This document shows positions 47,049 to 64,000 of a stretch of 64,000 bases of DNA, one piece after another; position 1 is the stretch's first letter; each line of letters opens with the position of its first letter. The notes beneath the pieces were generated by a model. That model saw nothing but the letters and a program-made list of their open reading frames with translations. It ran no database searches and was not told the DNA's origin. This stretch comes from a bacterium (lineage in GTDB: Bacteria > Eisenbacteria > RBG-16-71-46 > CAIMUX01). The stretch spans positions 1 through 64,000 of the forward strand of contig JAUIHP010000013.1 of assembly GCA_030431975.1 (NCBI GenBank), read 5' to 3'. The translations under genes were made by a program, and so were the position numbers.

Positions 47049-50000
47049 CTAGACCAGTGCGAACGTCAGCGCCCGCTCAAAGTCGAACGAACGCCCATGA
47101 ACCACACATTCATCGAAGATGGAGTTTCCAACAGACTCTCTGATTCGACGGACCAGCCCGGAGTACTCCTCGTCTTCCCCGAACGCGACCGTACTACCAC
47201 TCTCCTGCTGAACCGCCTCCGCCGCACCCAACAAGGTTGCCGCCCGCTCCAACTCCTGACGCTCGCATTCCACGGCCGCCAGAAGATGAAGCGCATGCAC
47301 GGCGTAGTAACGGCTCTCAGTCGAACGGAGCAGCTCGATCGCGGCGATGACTTCAGCGCGGGCCTTCGCGGGCTCGGACTTCCTAAGAAGCGTCGCACCG
47401 AGGTTGATGTGGGAAGAACAGATCGACGGCGAGTAACCCAGTTCCTTTGAAACCGCCAGACTTTGACGGTATCGGCGCTCCGCCTTGTCCCAATCTTCGC
47501 GGCGGAAAGCGACGCCTCCCAGGTTTCCAATCAGAGTGGCTTCGCCTGCGCGGTAGCCGATCCGGCGCGTCGTGGCCAACGCTTCTTCGAACGACTCTTC
47601 CGCCTCGTCAAGCCGCCCTTCCAGGAAGGCGAGATTGCCGAGCCCTCGCAGGGCTCCGTTCATCTCTGACATTTCGAGGGGGGACAGCTCTGACGAATCA
47701 GCCTTGTCTCGGAAGAGCGCAATGGACTCTCCATACGCAGCACGCGCGTCCGTCGTGCTGGAAGTTTCCGCGGCAACGTCACCCAGACCGCGGAGAGCAA
47801 ACGCGGCGAAGGAAACGTCCCCCGTCTTGCGGGCAAGGTCGAGTGCGAGTTCAAAGGCGTTCCGCGAACCGTCAAAGTCTCCCGCCTTGAACCTTAGGTA
47901 GGCCAACCAGTGAGCGACCTCCATCCGCTCCTCAGGGAACGTGTCCCCGACAACCTCCAGTGCGAGCTGAGAGAGACGTCCACCTTCCGTGAACGCTCCG
48001 ACGTAGTGCCAATAGGCTCCGAGCGCCCCGACCAAACGAAGACACGTCGAGTCGACCTCGCCCTGAGACTCGAGCACTCCAAGGACATGGTGACAGTTCT
48101 CGCTCTCGTTTCGAAGTCGATCGAGGTACTCCGCCCCGTCCTCGTGACCGAGGCGTGCCTTTGTCTGACGAGCCAGATCGAGCAGCGCATGTTTGAGTCG
48201 CGCCATCGCCTGCGCCTCGATCTCCGACGGCGCTTGTTCCTCCACGAACTGTCTTACGACTTCAAGGAACGAGTGACGTGGCACGGCCCCGACCATGGAG
48301 ACACGCACCCAGGATTGATCGACGAGGTCTTCGAGTAGGTCGGGAACGCTTTCCGGTTTCAGGTCATCGCCACAAACCTCTTCCGCCAGGGACACGGTCC
48401 ATCCGCCACGGAAGGTGGCGATCCGTTGCAGCAGGGCTTGTTCCGGCTTGGACAGCAGTTCGTGACTCCAGGACAACGTCGCTCGCAGGGAGGCTTGGCG
48501 ATCGTCATCTCGACGTCCTCGCTTGAGTAGCGTGAGCTGATCGTCGAGACGCGCTCGAATTTCGGACAGGCTCATGACCCGAAGACGAGCCGCGGCCAAT
48601 TCCAAAGCAAGCGGGAGCCCTTCCACTCGGCGACAGATTGCGACGACGTCCGGAGCAGTCTCCTGGTTCAAACCGAAGTCGGAGCGCACCGCGCGGGCCC
48701 GCTCGACAAAGAGACGCACCGCATCGAAATGAGCCAGCTGCTCCAGGCTTCGATTTCCGGATCCTTGCCCAGGTCTGTTTCCGTCTCCGTCTCCGTCTCC
48801 GATTCCGGTTCCGGTTCCGGTTCCGGTATCAACGTCTGTTACGTGCTCCTTGTCGGTGTCGGCCTGCGTCTCTTCCGGGAACGAAAGGAAATCGACGGGG
48901 AACACCGTTTCGACCGCCGACCCGACTGCGGCGCGGCTAGTCGTCAGGATTCGGAGTTCCGGACATGCGGCAGTCAAGTCCTCCGCAAAGGCTCGAACAT
49001 CGGAAAGCACGTGCTCGCAGTTGTCGAGCACGACAAGCGTCGGCGAGTTTCCACCCAGACGTGCAAGTACCGCATCCCTCAAGTCTCCGCCTCGACTCTC
49101 GACCAAACTCAGTTGACGGGCGACGACCTCGACGATGCGACCAGCGTCGGCATTCGCCTCAGCAGCCGCCGTCGGACTCATCGGGACGAGGTCGACGAAC
49201 CACACGCCTCCCGGAAATCGAGCCAGGGAACGGCGCGCGAACTCCACTGCCAAACGGGTCTTTCCAGACCCACCCAAGGCGACGAGGGAAACCCACCGCC
49301 GATTCGTGAACTCGTCCGAGAGAGACGACAAGAGTCGGGTCCGGCCTACAAAACGATCCGGCATCTCTCTTAGATTGTGAGGAGTGGACGTCTTCTTCGC
49401 TGAAACCAACGACGACTTCAGCCCTTCGGACCAACGCTCGAGTTCCTCGAAGACGCTCGCGGCATCTCTCCGCTCCGTGGGGTCCGCAGCGAGCAGTTGC
49501 TCCAGCAGCCCACGCATCGCCTCCGGTGCCGACGTTGGAAGCAGAGTCCAATCGAGTCGAACCTCTCGAGTCGCGGCCAGGAGTTCGGCCAACGTTTCTC
49601 CGGCGACCGGTGTGCGCCCTGTCATCGCAAAGAAGAGAACGCAACCCAAAGCCCAGAGGTCGTCTGTAGGGGTGGGCAATCTGCCGTCCAGATGTTCCGG
49701 GCTGAGAAAGCCCGGTGTTCCCAAACGTGGCGCCGAAGGGAAAGGCAACTTCGCATCCGAAGTACCGGAACCCGGGGAGGAGATCCCTCCCGACACCTTC
49801 GCGGTACCCAGGAATGAAGCCTCCGCCGACCCTGCCTTTCCTGCCTTCCCTGCACCCTTCGACTCGGCCGCATCAAACCATCCGGCAACACCAAAGTCGA
49901 GAATACGGACTGTCCCATCCGGACAGAGCTTGATGTTGTCAGGCTTGAGATCCCGATGTACGACTCCGTGCCGGTGCGCGTATGCCAACGCTTCGGCAAG

Positions 50001-50660
50001 GCTCGCGCCCAGGGCCACAGCTTCGCCCGGCGAAAGTCGCCGCGCACGTACGCGTTCCTGCAGCGTTTCGCCCGGAACCAGTTCCTGCGTGAAGAAAGCC
50101 CGGCCTTCGGCTTCTTCGAGAGAGAAAACCGTAGCGATCCCGGGATGACGCAGCTTCGCGAGTAGCCGTGCCTCGTGTTCGATCCGATCCAACACGTCAC
50201 GGTTCGGAACGAGGTCGAGCGGAAACAGCTTGAGCGCGACGCGTCGATCGAGCGACGGATCCCGCGCTTCATAGACCGCACCCATCCCGCCTCGTCCGAG
50301 AAGACCGATCAGTTCATATCGACCGAGAGTTCCTTCGAGCACCTCAGCATCGGAGACGGTCTCATGTGGCTTCGACTGGAATCCCGGCTCCAGGAATCGG
50401 GACAGATCGAGAGAGTCCGCATCGAGTAGGGACTCGACGAGATCCCGAAGTCCCGGATCGTCGGCGCACTCATGGTCCAGCGCTTCGGAGCGCTTCCCCG
50501 GAGGAAACGCCCGCACGGCCCAAAAGACACTCTCCGCACGGTCGAAGTCCCAAGCCTGTTCATCGAGACGGTCTTCTTCATTGCGACGGTCCTGTCCGTC
50601 GCCACGACCCTGCCCATCTCCGCGGCCCCGTTCATCACGACGACTCTTCTCATCCGACAT
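47049..50660 (-). CDS. Ser/Thr protein kinase fused to NB-ARC ATPase and TPR repeats
   Basis: 1203 residues. Kinase domain about 112-395: GRGGMGAVYEA loop, VALKLF, HRDLKPDN and DFG motifs all intact. A Gly/Ala/Ser-rich insert follows the DFG. The signalling ATPase (about 440-770) has P-loop GGSGKTRLA at about 460, TLVVLDNCEHVL (Walker B), LRILTTSR (sensor) and EGLPLALELAAARL, as in the NB-ARC/AfsR-SARP type STAND proteins. TPR-like repeats run from about 860 to 1150 (RGLGDVAAETSSTTDARAAY, GALRGLGNLAFLEGRLDEAE). The start overlaps the upstream sigma-factor gene by 11 bp. No membrane helix, so cytosolic. A Gly-Asp hexamer repeat lies in the ATPase. Signal and targets are unknown. Confidence 0.92.
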   Translation of the reverse strand: MSDEKSRRDERGRGDGQGRGDGQDRRNEEDRLDEQAWDFDRAESVFWAVRAFPPGKRSEALDHECADDPGLRDLVESLLDADSLDLSRFLEPGFQSKPHETVSDAEVLEGTLGRYELIGLLGRGGMGAVYEARDPSLDRRVALKLFPLDLVPNRDVLDRIEHEARLLAKLRHPGIATVFSLEEAEGRAFFTQELVPGETLQERVRARRLSPGEAVALGASLAEALAYAHRHGVVHRDLKPDNIKLCPDGTVRILDFGVAGWFDAAESKGAGKAGKAGSAEASFLGTAKVSGGISSPGSGTSDAKLPFPSAPRLGTPGFLSPEHLDGRLPTPTDDLWALGCVLFFAMTGRTPVAGETLAELLAATREVRLDWTLLPTSAPEAMRGLLEQLLAADPTERRDAASVFEELERWSEGLKSSLVSAKKTSTPHNLREMPDRFVGRTRLLSSLSDEFTNRRWVSLVALGGSGKTRLAVEFARRSLARFPGGVWFVDLVPMSPTAAAEANADAGRIVEVVARQLSLVESRGGDLRDAVLARLGGNSPTLVVLDNCEHVLSDVRAFAEDLTAACPELRILTTSRAAVGSAVETVFPVDFLSFPEETQADTDKEHVTDVDTGTGTGTGIGDGDGDGNRPGQGSGNRSLEQLAHFDAVRLFVERARAVRSDFGLNQETAPDVVAICRRVEGLPLALELAAARLRVMSLSEIRARLDDQLTLLKRGRRDDDRQASLRATLSWSHELLSKPEQALLQRIATFRGGWTVSLAEEVCGDDLKPESVPDLLEDLVDQSWVRVSMVGAVPRHSFLEVVRQFVEEQAPSEIEAQAMARLKHALLDLARQTKARLGHEDGAEYLDRLRNESENCHHVLGVLESQGEVDSTCLRLVGALGAYWHYVGAFTEGGRLSQLALEVVGDTFPEERMEVAHWLAYLRFKAGDFDGSRNAFELALDLARKTGDVSFAAFALRGLGDVAAETSSTTDARAAYGESIALFRDKADSSELSPLEMSEMNGALRGLGNLAFLEGRLDEAEESFEEALATTRRIGYRAGEATLIGNLGGVAFRREDWDKAERRYRQSLAVSKELGYSPSICSSHINLGATLLRKSEPAKARAEVIAAIELLRSTESRYYAVHALHLLAAVECERQELERAATLLGAAEAVQQESGSTVAFGEDEEYSGLVRRIRESVGNSIFDECVVHGRSFDFERALTFALV
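48778..48825. repeat. 6-bp tandem repeat in the kinase-ATPase gene
   Basis: Eight 6-bp units NNTCCG from 48778: TTTCCG, TCTCCG three times, ATTCCG, GTTCCG three times. On the minus strand they encode the alternating GTGTGIGDGDGDGN residues of a loop in the ATPase region. Copy number can change without frameshift. Confidence 0.85.
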
Positions 50661-51237
50661 GACCGCTCAGCTCCCGATAAAGAAAGAGGCGCGCGAAATG
50701 CCACTCCCGTTCCACCGTGCGCACACTCGTTTCGAGTGCTTCCGCGACTTCCTCCACGGAAAGCCCGGCCACGAACCGAAGAAGAACGATCCGTCCCCGG
50801 CGGGAGTCCTTTCCCAACCGCTCCAGGGCCCGATCCAGGGCAAGCACGTCATCGGCGCGGCTCTCGTCGACGAGGCTGTCCAGACTGAACTCGAGGTTGG
50901 CTGGATCGACGCGACGCAGCTTTCCTCCTCGTTTCAGGCTGCCTTTCTCGCGCGCCCGGTCGATGAGAACTCTCCACATTGCTTTGGAAGCGGCGCCCCA
51001 GAAGTGTCCGCTGCTGTTCCATTGCCCGGGCCCGGACCCCATCAGGCGCAGGTAGGTCTCGTGAATGAGCGCGGTCGGCTGGAGGGTGTCTCCGGGAGGA
51101 AGTTTGGACATGCGAGAGCGGGCCAGGCTTCGCAGCTCGGTGTACAAGAGCTCGAGCAGCTCTTCCGAGGACTTGCGATCTCCCTCGCCGATGGCGTCCA
51201 GAAGATGAGTCACTCTCCCGCTCAGGACGGGATCCAT
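50650..51237 (-). CDS. ECF-type RNA polymerase sigma factor (RNA polymerase sigma-70-like, ECF_sub group)
   Basis: 195 residues from the ATG at 51237, behind GGGAGG 10 bp upstream. Region 2 includes ELLELLYTELRSLARSRMSK and HETYLRLMG; GHFWGAASKAMWRVLIDRAR follows, typical of the sigma group found with kinases in Planctomycetes and Acidobacteria. Region 4 has RFVAGLSVEEVAEALETSVRTVEREW as its helix-turn-helix. It overlaps the Ser/Thr kinase gene by 11 bp, so kinase and sigma factor are made together; the kinase may control it. No anti-sigma gene is adjacent. Confidence 0.9.
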   Translation of the reverse strand: MDPVLSGRVTHLLDAIGEGDRKSSEELLELLYTELRSLARSRMSKLPPGDTLQPTALIHETYLRLMGSGPGQWNSSGHFWGAASKAMWRVLIDRAREKGSLKRGGKLRRVDPANLEFSLDSLVDESRADDVLALDRALERLGKDSRRGRIVLLRFVAGLSVEEVAEALETSVRTVEREWHFARLFLYRELSGHVG

Positions 51238-51415
51238 TGGCGGCAGCCTCCCGTGGAATGGACTTCGGACATTGTAGACCACCAGCCGGTTGTCGACCCA
51301 AACGACAACGGGGATGGAGACCTGTCGGCCCCATCCCCGCAAGGATCTTTGCGGCGAGTTCTCTCCGAGCGAGTGCCGGGAGAGAGCGTCTCGCCGTTCG
51401 GTGCGTCCCGTTCGC

Positions 51416-52980: not shown

Positions 52981-54309
52981 TCAGGAGGGATCGACGTACA
53001 TGGGGACCCGAACGCGGTAGCTCGTCCCCTTCCCGGGAACGCTCTCCATTTCGAGCACGGCGCCCATCCGCTCGGCCATTTGCTTCGCCAGAGCGAGGCC
53101 TTCGCCGTGAAGCCCTTCCTCCCGATGAAACGTCGAGAGGAGTCCCTGGACCTTTTCCTGCGACATCCCGGGACCATTGTCCGTGAGTTGGATGGAGATC
53201 CAGGCGCCATCGTCATCGGCCAAAGAAAACGCTTCGAGGCGGATGCTCGAACCCTGTGGCGTCAGCTTGACCGCGTGGTCGACGAAGGTTTGGAGAATCT
53301 GCTCCAGCCGGTTCGGATCCGTTTCGGCCGGGGGCAAGCCGGTCTCCGACGCGTAGCGGAACTCCCGAAGGTTCTCTGCAATCCCGAGGTGCCGGTCCAG
53401 ATAGAACTGCTCGAGGACGGGCTCGAGCTCCACCTCTTCAAGGTGAAACTCCATCGTGTCCGCAGCGGACGAAAGATCGACCAGCCGCTCGGTCAGCCCG
53501 CTGAGTTTTTGGCTCTCCGACAGTATGGTTTCCAGAAACTCCCGCTTCCCCTCGTCCTGCTCTTCGGAGACCAGCCACTGGGCATAGGCCAGGATGATCG
53601 TCAGAGGACCTTTCAAGTCCTGGTTGATGCCGCGGAGATAGTCGGCCTTGCTGCGCTCCGCCTCCCGAAGCTGGTCATAGGCGAGCTCGAGTTGACGGTT
53701 CTTCTCCGAGACCTTGCTGTACCGACTGGTGTTCTCCAAGGCCACGCCGAGTACGCCCAGCGAGCCGAGCAGCACCTGCTTGTCGACCGTCTCGTAGCCG
53801 CCCCCGCCGACACGCCGACCTAGCGCAACCATGCCGACGAGTCGCTTCTTCACGAAGATCGGGGCGAAGATCTCGAGCTCCGCGCGCCGAATCATGGCCA
53901 GACCGCTCTCGTGGACAAACTCTACGAGTTCTTCCGTTACGAGCGCCTCCCCATGCTCGCACATGACATCCGCCAGCTCCCGTCCGCAGACCGACCCGAT
54001 CGCCGACGCCTTCTCCAGAGGAATGCCGTAGGCGCGCAGGAGGATCGCCCGCGACTGATCCCCCTTCGAAAACAACCAGATCGAGGAACGTGGCGTCCCG
54101 ACATGTCCCATGAGGTTGAACAGGACAAGGTCGGCAATCTGATACGGGTCGAGCGAGACAGTGAGCTCACGCGTCAACTCCAGAATCGAGAGCAGGCTGT
54201 GCTCCCGACTCTGCACGATGGCAGCCACCTCCGGCTCGAGAGCTTCCAATCCCGGTAGCTCCCGAAACGACAGATGCACGGACTTTCTCTTTCTCAGTGG
54301 CTCGCTCAC
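52981..54309 (-). CDS. GAF domain plus degenerate histidine-kinase-like protein
   Basis: 442 residues, no membrane helix. A GAF-like sensor covers about 40-195. The dimerisation region at about 220-285 reads YLRGINQDLKGPLTIILAYA, where His of the usual H-E/D-L-R-x-P-L box is Gln. The ATPase domain (about 300-440) has an altered N-box (DHAVKLTPQG, the conserved Asn is His), an intact G1 (DNGPGMSQ) and a G2 reading GEGLALAK. So autophosphorylation is not expected. It follows the STAS gene by 12 bp, within a partner-switching module, and may act as a sensor or scaffold. Assignment as inactive is by sequence only. Confidence 0.88.
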   Translation of the reverse strand: MSEPLRKRKSVHLSFRELPGLEALEPEVAAIVQSREHSLLSILELTRELTVSLDPYQIADLVLFNLMGHVGTPRSSIWLFSKGDQSRAILLRAYGIPLEKASAIGSVCGRELADVMCEHGEALVTEELVEFVHESGLAMIRRAELEIFAPIFVKKRLVGMVALGRRVGGGGYETVDKQVLLGSLGVLGVALENTSRYSKVSEKNRQLELAYDQLREAERSKADYLRGINQDLKGPLTIILAYAQWLVSEEQDEGKREFLETILSESQKLSGLTERLVDLSSAADTMEFHLEEVELEPVLEQFYLDRHLGIAENLREFRYASETGLPPAETDPNRLEQILQTFVDHAVKLTPQGSSIRLEAFSLADDDGAWISIQLTDNGPGMSQEKVQGLLSTFHREEGLHGEGLALAKQMAERMGAVLEMESVPGKGTSYRVRVPMYVDPS

Positions 54310-54321
54310 GCTTCGCTCGAC

Positions 54322-54672
54322 TTACGCAGCCGCCCGATCACAGGCGTCGCTCTCGCTATCGGTGATATCGAGGAACGTGTTGAGGTTGAGCAGGCGAATG
54401 ACCGAGTCGACGACCGATGAGAGCTCGGCGTAGTAGATATCGACGTTCGCCTCACGGAACTCTTCGCTGAGTGCCAGGAGCGCGCCGACACCGCTGGATG
54501 CGATGAACGACACCTGCGACATGTTGACGATGAGCGAGCACCCCTGCTCCTTGACCTCACGGGCCTGGGACAAGAGCTCCGGCGTACTCGCAGCGTTCAG
54601 GTGTCCGGAGACCCGAAACAACTGAGTCCCTCCAGGGGTCTGAGTCTTCTCGATGGCAAACGTTTCAGGCAT
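54322..54672 (-). CDS. STAS-domain anti-sigma factor antagonist
   Basis: 116 residues from the ATG at 54672, behind a perfect AGGAGGTG. It overlaps the phosphatase gene by 8 bp. STAS core: TQLFRVSGHLNAASTPELLS, SLIVNMSQVSFIASSGVGAL and LSEEFREANVDIYY. The phosphorylatable Ser lies in ASSGVGAL; the Asp usually before it is Ala. Unphosphorylated STAS proteins bind the RsbW-like kinase, and the phosphatase encoded next to it should restore that form. Confidence 0.93.
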   Translation of the reverse strand: MPETFAIEKTQTPGGTQLFRVSGHLNAASTPELLSQAREVKEQGCSLIVNMSQVSFIASSGVGALLALSEEFREANVDIYYAELSSVVDSVIRLLNLNTFLDITDSESDACDRAAA

Positions 54673-57067
54673 GACGCACCTCCTTGAGTTCGACCGCGTC
54701 AGGATCAAAAGCGAGAATCGTGATGTTTCCTTGCGACGTGGCGGGTCGGTAGAGAACCTCGCTCATGACGCGATGAATGATGTCGAGGCCGAAACCTCGA
54801 GTCCGTCTACGAACGGCTGGGTCATTGAAATCAGAGGCCGTCCAGTTCTCGGCCGAGAAAGGAAGACCGTCATCCAGAACGACAAAGTGTCCGAGTATGG
54901 ACGCTTCAAACTCCGAGTCCACCTGGCGTGGCACCCACCACAACTCGAACTCTTCCCCCGTCACCCCGTAACCGTGCTCGGCAACGTTGGTGCAACACTC
55001 ATAGAGAGCTGTGACGAGAAGCTCGACCTTGGCCTTCTCCAGGTTCTCGAGGCGGGACCGACGGAGCAGCCAGGGCTCAATACAGTCAAGTTCACGAACG
55101 TTGGTCGGAAGGACAACCCGATCGCCGCAGCGACGCGCCAGGTCCAACCAACGGAGCGCCTCCTCTTCCTGCGACATTTCCGGGATGCTCTTTCCCAGTT
55201 CGTCGACGAAGCCCGCGGCATCGGTTGGCGTCTCTGCCATCTTCGGACCGGGGACCGGACTGACGTGCGAGGTGGCTTCTGCTTGCGCGACCGCGGGCAA
55301 CTCGCGGGCTTCCGCTTGCGCGGCCGGTTCCTCTGAATCGAATCCACCCGTCTCTTCCCGACGTGTCGCATCCGTCGGAAGCGTCGTCCGCTGGGAGCCT
55401 TGGTGGGCAGCGTACCCGGGCTTTGGAAACGGAATGACCTTCGCCTCTGCGTCGACAGAGCCCGATGTGGCCGGAAGCTCGCGACTGATCGTGACCAGAG
55501 TCTCATCATCCTGTCGGGGACCGCCGGCTCGGAAGGTCTCGAGCGAACTTTGGAACGACTCCAGAACCTTGATGGAGCCCTTGGGCGCCTCGCGCTCCAG
55601 AAGCTCTACCATGCCTTCGATCTCGAACTGTGTTTCGCCGTCTTCACCCAAGGTCTCGTTGATGCCGTCCGTGTACTGAACCATCAGGTCGCCGGGGGCC
55701 AACTCCGTCCATTCATCCTTGAGAGAGCGAGCAACGAATCCCCCCTTGACCGCACCGAGTGGAATTCCAGTGGATCGGATCTCCTCGACCTCACCGTCCT
55801 TCTTGCGATAGATCAAGGTCGGCATGTGCCCCGCGGATGCGAAACAGAAACGTCCCGAGGCCGGCTCGAGAATGCCGTAGAACATCGTGACGAACATTCC
55901 CGGGCGAAGGTCGGGGGCCAGCGCCTCGTCCAACGCGCCAAGCAGCTGCGCAGGGGACTCAAAGCGATCGCGATAGGCTTTCAGGAACGCTGACACCATC
56001 GACATGACCAGACATCCGGCCAGTCCTTTTCCGGAAACGTCGGCGACAACAACTCCCATCTTTCCTTCGTCGAGTTCGAAATAGTCGTAGTAGTCGCCTC
56101 CGACCTCGAAAGCCGCCGTGTGCGATCCATCCACGATGAAGCTCTCGGCCGTACGGCTCTCGTGAGGAAGCAACCGGCCCTGGATATCGCGCGCGAGATC
56201 CAGCTCGTGGGTCAGCCGCTCCTTTTCGACCATCTCGGCCTGGGCGACCTTGAGCTGCGATGCCATCTCGTTGACCGTCTGGGCCAGCAGTCCCAGTTCG
56301 TTTCCGTCTTTGACGTCGATCGGGTGGTCGAGATCCCCGTGCCCGATTCGTTCGATTCCTTTTCGCAGATCGTCAATGGGGGAAAGCAGCCCGGTCATCG
56401 TGAGGAAGACGACACCAATGGCCAACGCGAGAATTCCTCCGACGACCAGCAGAAGCTTCATCCTCGCCTTATGGATGATCGTATCAATATAGCTTCGGTC
56501 GATACCGACTGCGCACGATCCGATCTCCTGGTCCTGATACTCGACCGGAGTGGTGGCAACGATGAGGTCCGTATTGGCCAGCATCCCTTCTCCGCCCAGA
56601 AGCTGCTGACCACCGGTGTAGGGACTTAGCGACGCGTCATGAGCGAAGTCCTCGCCCAACAGACGAAACTCGGGATGACCCTGAATCTTCGACTCGTGAT
56701 CGGTCACGACCAGAAGTCGGAACTCCGGATTCCGTTCCTGCTTTTCCTTGAGCAACGGATGAAGCGTCAGCTCCGGAAAGTCGCTGAGCAGCGCCGAAGA
56801 GCTGGCTAGCGCGAGGTTGCGCGCCTCGAGCAACAACCGTGTCTCCAGTTCTTCGGTAAGTGCAACACGCGTCGAGTGCTCCTGAATGGCGCCGACTCCG
56901 ATGACAGAGGCCGCGGTCAGAACCACTGCGACCAGGGTCACAATGAGACGGATTCCGATTCGCGGTCTCCTTCGGGAGACGATACGGTCCAACCGGGCCG
57001 TACCCTCCTCACCGGGCCGGACGGAGTCACCGTCCGCGTTCGATACCTTGGTTTCCTCAGACTTCAT
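54665..57067 (-). CDS. Membrane SpoIIE/RsbU-type PP2C phosphatase fused to an RsbW-like ATPase
   Basis: 800 residues. TM1 (RLIVTLVAVVLTAASVIGVG) and TM2 (LLLVVGGILALAIGVVFLTM) bracket a periplasmic sensor of about 145 residues. HAMP (LSPIDDLRKGIERIGHGDLD) follows, then the PP2C domain at about 310-530 with metal Asp residues in GGDYYDYF, VADVSGKG, YTDGINE and DDETLV. A Pro/Ala/Glu-rich linker (530-650) leads to a HATPase_c domain at about 655-795 (LVTALYECCTNVAEHGYG, LDDGLPF, TRGFGLDIIHRV). One chain thus has both phosphatase and kinase modules of a partner switch. GGGGGAA precedes the ATG. Confidence 0.93.
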   Translation of the reverse strand: MKSEETKVSNADGDSVRPGEEGTARLDRIVSRRRPRIGIRLIVTLVAVVLTAASVIGVGAIQEHSTRVALTEELETRLLLEARNLALASSSALLSDFPELTLHPLLKEKQERNPEFRLLVVTDHESKIQGHPEFRLLGEDFAHDASLSPYTGGQQLLGGEGMLANTDLIVATTPVEYQDQEIGSCAVGIDRSYIDTIIHKARMKLLLVVGGILALAIGVVFLTMTGLLSPIDDLRKGIERIGHGDLDHPIDVKDGNELGLLAQTVNEMASQLKVAQAEMVEKERLTHELDLARDIQGRLLPHESRTAESFIVDGSHTAAFEVGGDYYDYFELDEGKMGVVVADVSGKGLAGCLVMSMVSAFLKAYRDRFESPAQLLGALDEALAPDLRPGMFVTMFYGILEPASGRFCFASAGHMPTLIYRKKDGEVEEIRSTGIPLGAVKGGFVARSLKDEWTELAPGDLMVQYTDGINETLGEDGETQFEIEGMVELLEREAPKGSIKVLESFQSSLETFRAGGPRQDDETLVTISRELPATSGSVDAEAKVIPFPKPGYAAHQGSQRTTLPTDATRREETGGFDSEEPAAQAEARELPAVAQAEATSHVSPVPGPKMAETPTDAAGFVDELGKSIPEMSQEEEALRWLDLARRCGDRVVLPTNVRELDCIEPWLLRRSRLENLEKAKVELLVTALYECCTNVAEHGYGVTGEEFELWWVPRQVDSEFEASILGHFVVLDDGLPFSAENWTASDFNDPAVRRRTRGFGLDIIHRVMSEVLYRPATSQGNITILAFDPDAVELKEVRHA

Positions 57068-57172: not shown

Positions 57173-59293
57173 CTATTCATCGCTACCGCCCCGAATCTCC
57201 TTGGCTCGACTGCGGTGTCGCTGCGCTCGTTCGAGATAGCCCTGAGCTTTGGCATTGCCCGGATCCGCGTCGACAGCACGGGTCCAAAGATCGATGGCCT
57301 CTTCCAGTTTTCCGGCGGCAAACTGCTCCATTCCAACCGTGAGGTACTCGCGAACGAGATTCTCCCGCACCTGTGCGTAGTTCGGAGCGTCGGCGAAGAC
57401 CAACTCGAAGAATCGGATGGCGTCGGCCGAGCGGCCGTTCTGCGATGACTGCATTCCGCGGCGGTAGAGATCCTCGAGTTCCGTTGCCGACATGCGCGGC
57501 GCGGTCCGGGTTTTCTCGACGGTCGGGGCTGGATCCGAAACAGGTCCCGGTTCCGATGTTGAAGAGGTGGCGTCGGCAATCGCCCTGGACTTGCTGGAGT
57601 TGAGCTGTGTCAGGAGTGCCATCAGGCGCGGGGTGTCCCCTTCCACGCTACGAAGCTTGGCGATGCTTTCGGCAGCCTGGCGATAGCGTCCCTGTCCGAT
57701 CCAAAGAGGGATGTTGGCCTGAACCTCGCGGAACTCGCGATCGATCGACCCTTCGGTGCGCCGGAGCATGGCCTTGGCTTCTTCGTCCTTGGGACTGGCC
57801 GCAATCACCTTCTCGAAACCACTCTTCGCAGCGCCCCAGTCCCCTTCGGCGAAGGAGTCCATGGCGTCGGCGAAGGCTTCGCGAATGCCCTGGGCACGGG
57901 CTGCGCGCCGGCTGCTCTCCGCATCCACTCGCGCTTTGGCCTCAGCGGCATCCTTATCATCCGTACGCAGCGACAGAACCCGTCCGAAGGCCAGGCTCGC
58001 CTCACTCAACCGGTTCTTCTTCTCCATGGCCACACCCTGGTCGAAGTAGATGTTGGCCTGAACATCGATGGCTCCCTCCCGTTCGGGCGCGAGCGTCAAA
58101 GCGACATCGATAACGGATAGAGCCTCATCGAGGTCACCGGCTTTCCGCGCCTCCTCGGCCACACGGATCAGGTCGACGATTCGCTCTTCCTGTCGGTCCT
58201 GAAACGCCCGTTCGAGACGAGCCTGAAGTTGGCTTTCCTGTTGTTCCAGGAACTGCAGCCTACGCTCGGAGGTCGTTGCGCCGAGTTCGTAGGACAGCCC
58301 GATTCGGTGGACCGAACCGAGACCTCGATCCTCGAATGCATAGTCGACGTCAAAGTCCTGCCAGTGGACTCCTGCACCGATGGAAGATCCAGTGCCCCCG
58401 ACTCCCGTACGGAGTGACAGCATGGGGTGAAGGGTCCATTCGGCCCCGGTGCGAAGTTGCGTTCCTTCGGGTGATGACGATTCCAAGTCCAGTGCGGCAA
58501 CGAGATGGCTGCCACCGATCCACGTCCGTTCCAACGCCATCCCGATGCGGAAAGCCGAAGGGTCGACGACGTTGTCTTGCTCCAATCGAATCTCCGGCTC
58601 GATGAAGTTGACCCACGAGGCACCGAGACTGAGGCCGTGCGCCCAATCGGAGTCCCAATCAAAGGTCGTCGCCGGATGGAAACGTGCGCCGACGTCGAGT
58701 CCCAGGCCGTTGGCGCTGAAGTCTCCCAACTGCTCGCGCCGAAACTTGCCGGTCGCGCCCACAGACCAGCTGTCTCCCATCGGACGGGCATAGGCCAGGG
58801 ATGCCTGAAGCTGGTTTGAACTGAAGCCATCGTCCAAAACCTGATTGCGACTGTCGCGCGACTCGATGCCCTGAACTCCGAAATGGCGAATGCCCAGAGC
58901 GACCGAGCCCCAACGCCAGCTCGGGAGAACACCGGCAACGTGGGACTCGCCGATCTCTTCGCCGAAGTAGGATGTTCGTCCGAATGAGAACTGTGTTCGG
59001 GAGACGCCGGCCAGTCCCGCAGGATTCCAGTCCAAGGAAGCGAGGCTGCCTCCGACGGCGGTAAACGCGCCGCCCATTCCGAGCGCGCGCAGGTCGGCTC
59101 CTTCCGCAAAGACGGATCGGGTCCCGCCGTTTTCTGCCGCCTCTGCGGTACCGGCCGCGGTCAGTGCAACCCACCCCACAAGTACGGCGAACACCGTGGG
59201 CACCGCAGTCTTGGTTCGCACCCGGAGCTTTCCGAGGGAAGATCCTGCTGAAGCGCGTCCAGTCGGTGGGATATGAAGGCGTAGAGATCTCAT
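57173..59293 (-). CDS. PorV/UPF0164-like outer-membrane barrel with C-terminal TPR repeats
   Basis: 706 residues from an ATG that overlaps the upstream stop (ATGA). Signal peptide: TVFAVLVGWVALTAAGTAEA after a long basic leader of about 30 residues. The barrel (about 60-350) opens with the PorV/PorQ hallmark ADLRALGMGGAFTAVGGSLA, then LDWNPAGLAGVSRTQFSFG. It closes with VDYAFEDRGLGSVHRIGLSYE. Residues about 370-700 are TPR-like (AEEARKAGDLDEALSVIDVA, RGMQSSQNGRSADAIRFFEL, AGKLEEAIDLWTRAVDADPG). In Bacteroidota PorV carries proteins with C-terminal sorting domains to the surface; the upstream gene here encodes a protein with a FlgD-type C-terminus, so a similar role is plausible. Confidence 0.88.
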   Translation of the reverse strand: MRSLRLHIPPTGRASAGSSLGKLRVRTKTAVPTVFAVLVGWVALTAAGTAEAAENGGTRSVFAEGADLRALGMGGAFTAVGGSLASLDWNPAGLAGVSRTQFSFGRTSYFGEEIGESHVAGVLPSWRWGSVALGIRHFGVQGIESRDSRNQVLDDGFSSNQLQASLAYARPMGDSWSVGATGKFRREQLGDFSANGLGLDVGARFHPATTFDWDSDWAHGLSLGASWVNFIEPEIRLEQDNVVDPSAFRIGMALERTWIGGSHLVAALDLESSSPEGTQLRTGAEWTLHPMLSLRTGVGGTGSSIGAGVHWQDFDVDYAFEDRGLGSVHRIGLSYELGATTSERRLQFLEQQESQLQARLERAFQDRQEERIVDLIRVAEEARKAGDLDEALSVIDVALTLAPEREGAIDVQANIYFDQGVAMEKKNRLSEASLAFGRVLSLRTDDKDAAEAKARVDAESSRRAARAQGIREAFADAMDSFAEGDWGAAKSGFEKVIAASPKDEEAKAMLRRTEGSIDREFREVQANIPLWIGQGRYRQAAESIAKLRSVEGDTPRLMALLTQLNSSKSRAIADATSSTSEPGPVSDPAPTVEKTRTAPRMSATELEDLYRRGMQSSQNGRSADAIRFFELVFADAPNYAQVRENLVREYLTVGMEQFAAGKLEEAIDLWTRAVDADPGNAKAQGYLERAQRHRSRAKEIRGGSDE

Positions 59294-62200
59294 CGGACCA
59301 CCGCGACTTTCCGCAGGATCTTTTCGGACCGGGATCCCATCTTGACCTCGAGTTCGGCGAGGTAGACGCCATTGACCACCAGGTCTCCGTTTCCGTTCCG
59401 CCCGTCCCACACCACCGTTTGATGAAGTCCCGCCTCGGCCTCACGGTTGTTGACGAGAGTCGCGACCTCCTTGCCGCGAAGCGTCCAAACCTTGAGAGAG
59501 ACGCGACCCGACTCCGGCAGGTAGTAGACGAAGTTCGTGGACTCGCGACCGGCTGCGAACGGATTCGGGAAGTTGCCGTAGCTCGCTTCCAAATCGATGG
59601 AGCCGAAGCTCCCGGACGCGGTCCAGAGCGGGAACGGGCTTCCGGTCTTTCCGCGTGCTTCGATAAGGAACGCCGCGCCTTCCGGCTGGACGATTCCAAT
59701 GTCGTCGGCGAGGAGTCCGAAGCTCGCCTGCTTGGACTCCCCTGCCTCTTCGAAGACGACGCGCATTTCAAATCGCGCTTCCTCGCCTTCAGAGAGGAAG
59801 AGAGACTCGCCCTCGACCTTGGCGGTTTCCTCGTCCCGGACCTTGAAGCGTCCCCAGAGTTCATCGTTCCGGTAGAGAGAGACTTGTTTGATCTCGGCCG
59901 ACATCGGGGCCTCGCCGGACTCGTCTGCGAAGCGTACCGTGATGTGCTCGACCTGGATCGGCCCTGAACCTTCGTCGGCGGGATGCGAGAAAACCAAGTC
60001 TCCGACGACAACCTCTCCGCCGTCGCGAACGAGTGCCGCCGGCATCGCGCTCTCGATCTCGACGTACAGTTCGCGAGGTGGAGCGGTCAGCTGTGTCAGT
60101 CCGGAAAAGACCAGGAGCTCCGACTCTGCCTCGGCCGAAACATCGACGGGACGGTTGCTGTTCACGTCGTAGGCCGAGATCTGTTCGGATCCCAGCGTCA
60201 ACTCCAACCAACCCGCCGCAGCTCCCGCGTCGATGTCGACATAGAGAGAGATCGCACGGGTCTGTCCCGGTTCCAATAGGATTCCCGACAGCTCGAACCC
60301 GGCGGATGTTCCCGTTCTCGGCACGGGAGAAATCAGCCCGACGATCTCGTCGTTTTCCTGTGCCCACATCGCACTCACGACGTCGCCGGGAATGACGCCG
60401 TCGCGGTTCTGATTCCAGAACTGCGCGATGAGGCCCCGGATTTCGATTCGGCCGACATCCTCTCCACCCGGATGGCGAAGCTGGACCCGCAGCGCCTCGA
60501 CGCCACGCGAACCGATCGCCAGCTGCTCCGGGAACATCGCCTGTCCCGCAACTTCGACCGACTCGGCCACAGACTCTACGTCGAGCTCTCCCGTCGGGGC
60601 TTCGTCTCCCGTATAGAGAACGGTGATCGCTCCACCGGTGTTCGCGTCGCGGGCATCGACCGACTGCGAGTCTTCCAGACGGAACCGCAGCCATGCCGGT
60701 TCGGCTTCATCCTGAACATCGATCTCGAGTGTCACAGGCACGACCGAACCCGAGGAAGCCGTCAGCGCGCTCGTCAGGCGCACCGCCACAGAGTCACCAT
60801 CCACTCCCGCTGCGAGAACCTGGTCACTCAGTGTCTGTAGCGGAGTCTTGACCACGACGCGGCGTACGATGGAGGCGAGATCCGGATGTGGGACACCTTC
60901 CTCATCCTCGATCGAGAGCGCAAAGGCTCCGATCCGGGTTTCGGATCCGCCTTGTGTCTGCACGTCGAACTCCAGCACAGGCAGCGAGGTCGCTCCCGGG
61001 GCGGCGCGAAGTGCATCTTTGGCCTTCGGTACGATCTCGACGAACGTTGCCTCGGAAACGAGCTGGGCCAGTCCGGAAACGATGGGGAACGATCCGTCGG
61101 AGAGTTCGATCGTGACGGGCGCGCCGCTCGTTGCGTCGACGGCCTCGAAAGAGTCTGCCGATTCGACCAGAACGCGATAGGAACTGACCGGGCTGAGTTC
61201 CGCAATGTCGACGCGAAGACTGATCGTCGTCGGCTCGCTCGTCGTCACCGCGATCGGCGTCGCCAGGTCGAGATCGATCTCTGAGGTGGTCCCGACTTCG
61301 GTCGTCGAGAGGTAGATGCGATTCCCTTCATTGACGACGATGCGACCAAAGACCGTCGAGGGATCGACATCCTCCCCGCTCTCGTCGACGAGCCGGACTC
61401 GAAGCGAGCGAATCTCGATATCAGACGAGCCGGCAATACCGGGGTTCCTAAAGGTGAAGGAGAGCGGGACGACGCCGACCTGTCCGTAGCTCAGCGTCAC
61501 GGGGAAGGATCCCAGGGCGAACAACTCCAGTCCCTCGGCCGCGAGCCGAATCTCGTGGGGACTGCTGGACGCCTCCAATGAAGTCCGCGTGGTCCCGTCC
61601 GTCGAGGATCGTCCCTGGGGCTGAGCCTTGATCCGAATCGTTCCCGGGTTGGGTCCCTGCACCTGCCAAGTCATGACGCCGGACTCCGTCGGGCTCAGAT
61701 CGAGTCGGGAGGGATCGGGTCCGGAAAGAACGTTCAGCGTCACGTCTCCGTCGACGGCAAGTTCGGGAACGCTGATGTTTTCGATGCGCTCGCCGCTTCG
61801 GTTCGACACCTCGACTCGTACGTTGAAGAGCTGCTCGACATTCGTCGCGCCAGGAGTAGTTTGGATCGAAGTCAGAAGCGGCGCCGAACTCAGGGTCAGA
61901 CGCTGAGCGCTTTCCACCGGCTCGTCGATCGGCCCATCGTTCTCGGACAGCATCGTGACGCCACCGACGGGAACAACAAGTTCGACCGTGTCGGTTTCTT
62001 CGAGTTGCTCGCTGACTGTCAACGAAACGAAGAACTCGGCGCCACCTTCGGGAACGGCGGCAGAGAGGCCGTTCGTGATCCACCGATCTCCGACCCGAAC
62101 GAACGCACCTAGATCCGTGTCATCGATGGCCGCTGCGTCGAAGACTCGGTCTCCTCCGTCCACCCATAGGCGAAGTTCACCGATCTCGCCCGTAGTTTCC

Positions 62201-64000
62201 TCGCCATTCTCGAGAACAATCCCGTCGAGCACGTCCGACACGTAACCGTTGGCCGGAATCCCGAGTCGCATCGCGAGAGCAGGTCCCTGTCCCGGCCCCA
62301 AAGTCAGGGTCGAGTTCGTCCCCACGTCGATCTGAGACGCGACCATACCGTCGACGGAAAGGCGAGCCGCAGACGAGATCGGCCAGTCACCGGTCACAGC
62401 CGTAGGACTGTCGAGGACGACACCGACAGGGTCGGATAGACGAACGAAGAGAACGTCACCATCGCGAACACGGTCCGGAGAAACGTCCCCCGCCAGAAAG
62501 AGGAAACGGGTTTCACCCGGAGGGACCGACCAGGAGAGATTGCGGAACCGCGCGCGGCCGGACTCGAAAGAGTTCGTTCCAAGCAACCGGTCGGCATCGG
62601 GCTCCCAGACTCCGTCGCCGTCGTCTTCGAAGAGAGATAGGACATCAAACGCTTCATCGAGTTGCGAGGTATCGCCCAGACCGATCGATGCGTTGTCGAA
62701 GACCAGCTCGTTGATCTGCTTGGTGTCGGCATACGTGTTGGTCGCAAACAGGTGAAGTAGGGCGACACCCTCGTCCCCTGGATGGATCGTGGCGGCGCCG
62801 ATTTCACGGGCAGCCAGGGCAACCCGGTCCACGCTCGAAATGATGAGCTCCGTTCCGCTGCTGACGGCGACGTCATTCGGCCCGTCGTTGCCGCTTTCCA
62901 TTCCGAGACCAACGTCGGAACCGGTCGGCAGTGAGAGTTCCAACGTCCGGCTTTCCAAAGCGGCGCCCGCGATGTCACCGGTAACGAACAGCCTGCGACC
63001 GCCAACCGGCACGGGCACGGAGAGGCCGGTGATCTCCCAACGGTCCCCTGTGAACAGCATCTGCCCGAGTCGGGTGTCCGTCGTGGCCGCGAATTCACCA
63101 TCGCCATCGTCCGACCAGATCTCGAATCGCTCCAGGTCCGTCGTTGCCGCGCTACCGGCAACCAGAACATCGACCCGGCGCAGTTCATCGGCTTGATAGC
63201 CATTGGCCGGAACCGTGAAGTCGAAGACCACGTTCCGCGTCGTTCCGGCCTCGACACTGGCGGCTTCCAGCGGATGAACCGTGATCTGTGCGGCCGACAT
63301 CCCGTCGACCTCCGCAAAGCCCGGAGGATTGGTCGGGCCGAGCAGGACCATCTCGGGTTCACCGGACCACTCCGTATCCTCGTACTCGAGTTCCAGGTCG
63401 AGAAGGTCACCATCCCGGGCGCCCAGTTGTGCCGCGGCACGCACCGCAAAGGTGAGAGCCCGACCGGGCCGGATATCGAGTTCGAGTTCTCCGAAGTGAA
63501 GGGCTCCGGATTCCGCGATTGCTGTCGCAACGAGGCTCGCCCCACTCTCCTCCGACTGTTGCCAAAGCTCGAAGGGCTGCCAAAGCGACTCCACGACCGC
63601 GTTGTCGGCTTCGCCAAAAGACGTCACGCTGAAGGTCAGTCCTTCCAGCGTCTCTGCCTCTACCGTTCCGTTGGTCCACGTCAGACGAAGTACGGAGATG
63701 GGATCCGCGCCGGGCGCGAGATCGGTCCAGATCTCACTCTGTACATAGACGGCAAGGGCGCCGTTGGGCGGGGCGATCTCGAAAGGCTCGGTCTGCCCCG
63801 TGCTTCGATCGACAGGGCCGTCGTTTCCGCTGGCCACCTGGATGCCGTGCTCGGGTCCTGCGGGAAGCGACAGCTGAATGGTACGGCCCGCCGCAGCGTC
63901 CTCGTCGACATGGGCCTGAACGCGGAAGAACTCGCCGCCTGCCGGAATGGCGAAGTCGAGTCCCGACCAGGTCCACCCTTCCGGTCCCGCCACGCCTTCG
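59290..64000 (-). CDS. Giant repeat surface protein with FlgD-type C-terminal domain (5' end beyond window)
   Basis: At least 1569 codons are open to the window edge; the true start lies outside. The visible protein is made of beta-rich units. ASGNDGP/ESGNDGP/SENDGP motifs recur about every 940 bp (near 63820, 62885 and 61935). Each period holds two related subunits with DDGDGEF-like loops and a W.I.GLSVPVP.GG-like strand. From about 61800 downwards the repeats diverge into Ig-like segments. The last 85 residues are a FlgD-Ig domain: YGNFPNPFAAGRESTNFVYY, GLHQTVVWDGRNGNGDLVVN, ending KILRKVAVVR. No enzyme motif is seen. It should be a surface or adhesin-like protein, co-translated with the PorV-like protein. 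Confidence 0.88.
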   Translation of the reverse strand, partial: EGVAGPEGWTWSGLDFAIPAGGEFFRVQAHVDEDAAAGRTIQLSLPAGPEHGIQVASGNDGPVDRSTGQTEPFEIAPPNGALAVYVQSEIWTDLAPGADPISVLRLTWTNGTVEAETLEGLTFSVTSFGEADNAVVESLWQPFELWQQSEESGASLVATAIAESGALHFGELELDIRPGRALTFAVRAAAQLGARDGDLLDLELEYEDTEWSGEPEMVLLGPTNPPGFAEVDGMSAAQITVHPLEAASVEAGTTRNVVFDFTVPANGYQADELRRVDVLVAGSAATTDLERFEIWSDDGDGEFAATTDTRLGQMLFTGDRWEITGLSVPVPVGGRRLFVTGDIAGAALESRTLELSLPTGSDVGLGMESGNDGPNDVAVSSGTELIISSVDRVALAAREIGAATIHPGDEGVALLHLFATNTYADTKQINELVFDNASIGLGDTSQLDEAFDVLSLFEDDGDGVWEPDADRLLGTNSFESGRARFRNLSWSVPPGETRFLFLAGDVSPDRVRDGDVLFVRLSDPVGVVLDSPTAVTGDWPISSAARLSVDGMVASQIDVGTNSTLTLGPGQGPALAMRLGIPANGYVSDVLDGIVLENGEETTGEIGELRLWVDGGDRVFDAAAIDDTDLGAFVRVGDRWITNGLSAAVPEGGAEFFVSLTVSEQLEETDTVELVVPVGGVTMLSENDGPIDEPVESAQRLTLSSAPLLTSIQTTPGATNVEQLFNVRVEVSNRSGERIENISVPELAVDGDVTLNVLSGPDPSRLDLSPTESGVMTWQVQGPNPGTIRIKAQPQGRSSTDGTTRTSLEASSSPHEIRLAAEGLELFALGSFPVTLSYGQVGVVPLSFTFRNPGIAGSSDIEIRSLRVRLVDESGEDVDPSTVFGRIVVNEGNRIYLSTTEVGTTSEIDLDLATPIAVTTSEPTTISLRVDIAELSPVSSYRVLVESADSFEAVDATSGAPVTIELSDGSFPIVSGLAQLVSEATFVEIVPKAKDALRAAPGATSLPVLEFDVQTQGGSETRIGAFALSIEDEEGVPHPDLASIVRRVVVKTPLQTLSDQVLAAGVDGDSVAVRLTSALTASSGSVVPVTLEIDVQDEAEPAWLRFRLEDSQSVDARDANTGGAITVLYTGDEAPTGELDVESVAESVEVAGQAMFPEQLAIGSRGVEALRVQLRHPGGEDVGRIEIRGLIAQFWNQNRDGVIPGDVVSAMWAQENDEIVGLISPVPRTGTSAGFELSGILLEPGQTRAISLYVDIDAGAAAGWLELTLGSEQISAYDVNSNRPVDVSAEAESELLVFSGLTQLTAPPRELYVEIESAMPAALVRDGGEVVVGDLVFSHPADEGSGPIQVEHITVRFADESGEAPMSAEIKQVSLYRNDELWGRFKVRDEETAKVEGESLFLSEGEEARFEMRVVFEEAGESKQASFGLLADDIGIVQPEGAAFLIEARGKTGSPFPLWTASGSFGSIDLEASYGNFPNPFAAGRESTNFVYYLPESGRVSLKVWTLRGKEVATLVNNREAEAGLHQTVVWDGRNGNGDLVVNGVYLAELEVKMGSRSEKILRKVAVVR

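Follow-up and report, generated by a model that had tools for sequence, protein, structure and literature searches.

The three-gene locus

The DNA analyzed here (hereafter the window, 64,000 nucleotides at its full length) carries three tightly packed genes on the minus strand. The first, at 54665..57067, encodes an 800-aa protein in which Pfam matches and motifs gave the order TM-sCache-TM-HAMP, then a SpoIIE (PP2C) phosphatase domain and a HATPase_c_2 (RsbW-like serine kinase) domain. The SpoIIE (141.9 bits) and HATPase_c_2 (38.1 bits) matches both exceeded their Pfam cut-offs within this one chain, and HAMP was also matched, with sCache_3_2 falling just below its cut-off. A receiver domain that might serve as input was absent, the sCache-HAMP region being found in its place, and the best NCBIfam match of the phosphatase was the SiaA model, at a score far below the cut-off. 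The domains identify this protein as a membrane-anchored bifunctional regulator with predicted phosphatase and kinase functions.

The second gene (54322..54672, minus strand) encodes a stand-alone STAS protein of 116 aa, of the anti-sigma-antagonist type, with an SSG phospho-site motif (S59/S60); it matched STAS in Pfam at 52 bits, and TIGR00377 at 46 bits, below the 53-bit cut-off of that model. The third (52981..54309, minus strand) starts with GTG and encodes a 442-aa GAF-HisKA-HATPase protein, which Pfam, orthologue alignment, a constraint test and an AlphaFold2 model together mark as a degenerate (pseudo) histidine kinase. The stop of the SpoIIE-HATPase gene (54665) and the ATG of the STAS gene (54672) overlap by 8 bp, and 12 bp (54310-54321) lie between the STAS stop and the kinase GTG; the first-pass annotation of this DNA had given the genes, coordinates, overlap and gap correctly.

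Catalytic lesions of the kinase-like protein

The HisKA (42 bits) and HATPase_c (69 bits) matches of the 442-aa protein were above the Pfam cut-offs, and a GAF match reached 21 bits against a cut-off of 28.6 bits; a GAF-like alpha/beta domain was present in the AlphaFold2 model. This model (mean pLDDT 87) was confident for a GAF-coil-DHp-CA fold and disordered in the ATP lid, with residues 395-399 below a pLDDT of 50. The DHp-CA fold and descent from histidine kinases were thus indicated by the Pfam matches, by the model and by orthologues that are canonical histidine kinases.

Alignment with those orthologues bore out the replacement, already noted in the first-pass annotation, of the phospho-acceptor His by Gln (codon 230, CAG, Q230; 53620..53622, minus strand) and of the N-box Asn by His (codon 345, CAC, H345; 53275..53277, minus strand), with the G1 motif (DNGPGM) unbroken. 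The H-box reads NQDLKGP in the window kinase and NHELRTP in the orthologues, and the N-box FVDHAVKLTP in place of LVDNAVKFTP. The alignment also revealed two lesions absent from that annotation, namely a gap of 7 residues in the ATP lid, whose junction lies between residues 395 and 396 (53124..53125, minus strand), and damage to the G2 region, which is GLHGEGLALA in the window kinase and GGMGLGLA in the orthologues. Judged by these motifs, normal autophosphorylation should not occur in the window kinase, and an active ATPase is doubtful because the N-box is damaged and the lid shortened. The reading frame is nevertheless unbroken over its 442 codons, with normal codon-position GC. All 49 other HisKA proteins of the same genome have kept the His, which argues that its loss here is not due to chance.

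The loss is specific to the lineage of the window

We searched 47 genomes of the phylum, representing one class and including many fragmentary draft assemblies, and recovered seven orthologues of the kinase (in genomes G022, G014, G030, G039, G013, G027 and G016) at 32-39% identity. This search found no close relative of the window kinase gene, the nearest orthologue being 39% identical, and no orthologue in G001 and G002, which belong to the same family as the window's genome. In all seven orthologues the lid is full length and the N-box Asn is present, as is the His, which stands within HELR or HELL. The first-pass annotation had named orthologues with His, as a sign of sequencing error or local change, as the observation that would speak against its reading of the protein; His in seven of seven orthologues goes against that reading, and of the two explanations local loss is supported and sequencing error is not.

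The window kinase was compared with the orthologues in a constraint test at columns invariant in the orthologues, based on eight kinase sequences in which neither columns nor lineages are independent. At the same columns of the catalytic core, the window kinase deviated at 171/359 (48%) and the orthologues at 23/359 (6%), whereas in the GAF domain the window kinase deviated at 1/81 (1%) and the orthologues at 11/81 (14%). Counted per sequence, 23-25 of about 51 core sites were changed in the window kinase, as compared with 2-7 per orthologue, and 0-1 of only about 12 invariant GAF columns, as compared with 1-3. Trees gave the same picture, the core branch of the window kinase being the longest (1.21, against 0.39-0.89) and its GAF branch ordinary (0.84, against 0.32-1.11). 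Nine of its 11 radical changes fell within catalytic motifs, an enrichment over conservative changes that is not significant alone (Fisher test, p = 0.18), and many core substitutions were conservative hydrophobic swaps. The neighboring proteins showed no such pattern: the SpoIIE-HATPase protein was changed at 12/144 invariant columns (range among relatives, 0-20) and the STAS protein at 3/20, inside the range of its relatives. In the alignment the RsbW-type domain had its N-box and its glycine motifs, the SpoIIE motifs looked normal, and the SSG motif of the STAS protein was kept in all aligned relatives.

Sequencing or assembly error would be conceivable for H230Q and N345H, since each codon could have arisen by a one-base change, but it would also have to remove 21 nt from the lid and alter about 20 more invariant sites of the core, all without a frameshift, and leave the GAF domain conserved and the codon-position composition normal. 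As the core differs at 48% of invariant sites and the GAF domain at 1%, more than a one-base error is involved, and we give this explanation practically no weight. The His is present in 7/7 orthologues and in all 49 HisKA proteins found elsewhere in the genome. The loss of the His and Asn is real and local to the window's lineage; a missing His is here the sign of a loss in one lineage, and does not define a kinase family of its own.

The kinase is an accessory member of a conserved operon

The gene order large FlgD-Ig protein, PorV-TPR protein, SpoIIE-HATPase, STAS and GAF kinase recurred in G022, G014 and G030, and the SpoIIE-HATPase/STAS/GAF kinase triad also occurred in G039, where the large protein is encoded downstream on the opposite strand. 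In G016 the kinase and STAS domains form a single protein, kinase first and then STAS, and in G027 such a fusion adjoins the end of the SpoIIE-HATPase gene at the end of a contig. These fusions of a GAF histidine kinase to a C-terminal STAS domain (L037:8988-10547 and L036:651-2834) come from two genera of one family, and the alignment of their STAS part with the free STAS protein begins at the initiator Met of the latter. In G013 the GAF kinase was on a different contig from the STAS/SpoIIE locus. A search of genome contigs with the window kinase as sole query gave no matches; a profile search with the alignment yielded generic histidine kinases, and none of the 80 loci returned contained the triad.

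Because the gene order is conserved in the phylum and the kinase is fused to STAS in two genera, alignment and synteny place the kinase as a genuine third member of the partner-switch operon. To this extent the first-pass annotation, which had proposed a histidine-less sensor ATPase recruited to a partner switch, was right about membership. An ATPase recruited as such, able to bind ATP and the STAS protein without autophosphorylation, would fit the intact G1 motif and the family association with STAS that the fusions reveal; but since all orthologues are canonical kinases, recruitment preceded the loss of the His, and the damage to the N-box Asn, lid and G2 speaks against ATP turnover, so that we regard this part of the proposal as improbable. 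Even less probable is that the protein is a kinase by another route, such as a GHKL-type serine kinase in the manner of RsbT or RsbW, with the STAS protein as its substrate. Such a role would suit a GHKL ATPase adjoining a STAS gene; however, the N-box Asn is required in GHKL serine kinases as well, and the operon already encodes an intact RsbW-like domain.

The kinase also appears dispensable in some lineages. In G005, which belongs to the window's order, the kinase gene is a wreck, frameshifted, interrupted by a stop and lacking an internal segment (L151:5780-6641, minus strand), next to intact STAS and SpoIIE-HATPase genes, and its H-box still reads HHELRTPL. At the STAS and SpoIIE locus kept in the draft genomes G025 and G026, there was no adjacent GAF kinase of the family, although a gene missing from a locus in a draft assembly need not be truly lost. 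We therefore view the kinase as accessory, and the copy in the window may itself be in the course of disappearing.

After the STAS gene in G013 and G026, and after the kinase-STAS fusion in G016 and G027, comes a gene for a PAS histidine kinase; in G026 and G027 it is in turn followed by a response-regulator gene. These PAS kinase loci, all of one family, are L154:5352-7107, L036:2455-3943, L037:10561-11844 and L153:7492-8793, with the response regulator after those of L154 and L036.

Retained function or gene decay

Two known proteins illustrate how a histidine kinase may act without catalysis. DivL of Caulobacter is a pseudo-histidine kinase with the histidine kinase fold and no acceptor His that serves as a binding or sensing module (PMC4211667). 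The window kinase shares this fold and this lack; however, DivL homologues keep a Tyr and the other histidine kinase motifs, whereas the window loss is confined to one lineage and extends to the N-box, lid and G2. A non-His residue conserved across orthologues, as in DivL, was not found, the His being present in 7/7. The ChrS pseudokinase variant of Corynebacterium glutamicum is a recently inactivated histidine kinase that still acts through heterodimers (PMC9491836), but it differs in being a laboratory-evolved frameshift in the CA domain and in having no STAS partner.

It is possible, though on the unlikely side, that kinase activity became unneeded in the window's order and that the core is now drifting in a gene with no function left. 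The wrecked G005 gene beside its intact STAS and SpoIIE neighbors, the lack of an adjacent kinase at the locus in G025 and G026, and the lack of an orthologue in G001 and G002 all fit such decay. What this explanation accounts for poorly is the window gene itself, with 442 unbroken codons of normal codon-position composition, deviation at only 1% of invariant GAF columns and many core changes that are conservative hydrophobic swaps. The preserved GAF domain and intact reading frame favor a protein in use without catalysis, as in DivL or the ChrS variant, and we consider such a non-catalytic role more probable than decay.

A model for the partner switch

We consider it probable that the locus encodes a partner switch of the HsbR/HsbA kind whose accessory sensor kinase has turned pseudokinase in the window's lineage and likely still acts non-catalytically. 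The membrane partner switch would be the core of the system, its sCache-HAMP sensor setting the balance between the PP2C and RsbW-like domains, of which the former would dephosphorylate the STAS protein and the latter phosphorylate it. The STAS protein would then bind or release its target or targets. An ordinary GAF sensor histidine kinase would have joined this operon to serve the STAS protein as an accessory partner. In the window's lineage the phospho-acceptor His and the N-box Asn of this kinase, together with much of its ATP lid, have been lost, which makes it a pseudokinase. Since the GAF domain and overall fold are kept, this pseudokinase most likely retains a non-catalytic action, in which its GAF domain would control docking to the STAS protein or to another kinase. 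Phosphorylation of the STAS protein, its binding to the kinase and this remaining role are steps that we infer.

The model draws on HsbR-HsbA of Pseudomonas aeruginosa and CrsR-CrsA of Shewanella, in which a PP2C and an RsbW-type domain, both within one protein, determine how far a stand-alone STAS partner is phosphorylated (PMC6482189). The window SpoIIE-HATPase protein likewise joins a PP2C domain to an RsbW-type kinase/anti-sigma domain in one chain with STAS adjacent, and by analogy with HsbR-HsbA (PMC6482189) it should be able to add phosphate to the STAS protein and also to remove it. In contrast to HsbR, whose input comes through a receiver domain, the window protein has a membrane sCache-HAMP input, and the third gene of its operon encodes a GAF kinase. 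The window's genome also lacked a match to FlgM, as well as any SigB/F/G-type sigma factor above the cut-off, and contained one FliA/WhiG sigma factor. Since STAS and SpoIIE are retained even in genomes that lost the kinase, some other target must exist for the STAS protein.

SypE of Vibrio fischeri, which acts on the STAS protein SypA, is a further case of a serine kinase and a PP2C phosphatase in one chain (PMC3610818), resembling the window protein in this and in its STAS partner. It differs in its kinase-REC-phosphatase order and in lacking a membrane sensor and a third kinase. With HsbR, CrsR and SypE, the combination of phosphatase and RsbW-like kinase in one chain is thus already known. 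SiaABC of P. aeruginosa has a membrane HAMP-PP2C phosphatase that acts on a small partner protein (PMC7647112), as the window phosphatase may with its own small partner, but there the kinase SiaB is separate, the partner is phosphorylated on threonine and no histidine kinase gene is present. In RsfS-RsfR of M. smegmatis and RsbK-RsbY of B. cereus, a histidine kinase phosphorylates a receiver on the phosphatase (PMC10950880). These systems, like the window operon, wire a sensor histidine kinase to a partner-switch PP2C phosphatase, and RsbK has a GAF domain; however, the window kinase looks dead, and since the window phosphatase has no receiver, this route is closed to it.

The fusions suggest that the STAS protein is the partner of the kinase, although as such they document an association and not binding of STAS to the window pseudokinase. 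A more specific possibility, which we offer only tentatively and think rather unlikely, is that the STAS protein docks on the GAF sensor kinase, an arrangement made permanent by fusion in two genera, so that a histidine kinase is either controlled by the partner switch or gates it; in the window's lineage this docking role alone would be left to the kinase, as a GAF-gated pseudokinase receptor for STAS. For one accessory kinase in one operon, these genomes provide a natural series that is active by its motifs, fused to STAS, catalytically dead, broken or absent, and this series makes it possible to study what, apart from phosphotransfer, a partner switch gains from a sensor kinase.

Upstream operon members and surrounding genes

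Upstream of the partner switch (57173-63993) lie two genes whose linkage to it is conserved across the phylum. The nearer (57173..59410, minus strand), conserved beside the SpoIIE-HATPase gene, encodes a PorV/PorQ-family barrel plus TPR protein (NF033709, 97 bits, above cut-off). The other (59290..63993, minus strand), conserved in the operon, encodes a 1567-aa protein with a FlgD-Ig / T9SS-type C-terminus, for which PF13860 and NF052323 gave weak matches below their cut-offs. This linkage makes a surface or secretion role of the switch possible. We considered the N-terminal extensions of about 500 aa on the SpoIIE reading frames of G022, G030 and G039 as extra domains and rejected them, the PorV-TPR gene occupying this region in another frame.

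An ECF sigma factor gene (PF07638), followed by a gene for a Ser/Thr kinase-NTPase-TPR protein, is found at 47049-51342 and appears to form an independent regulatory pair. The sigma factor (50650-51342) was considered as a component of the switch and set aside, as it sits with the Ser/Thr kinase-TPR gene beyond a glutamate dehydrogenase gene. Elsewhere, a cluster of at least seven genes for HisKA kinases occupies about 18 kb at G000:C4:123900-142100.
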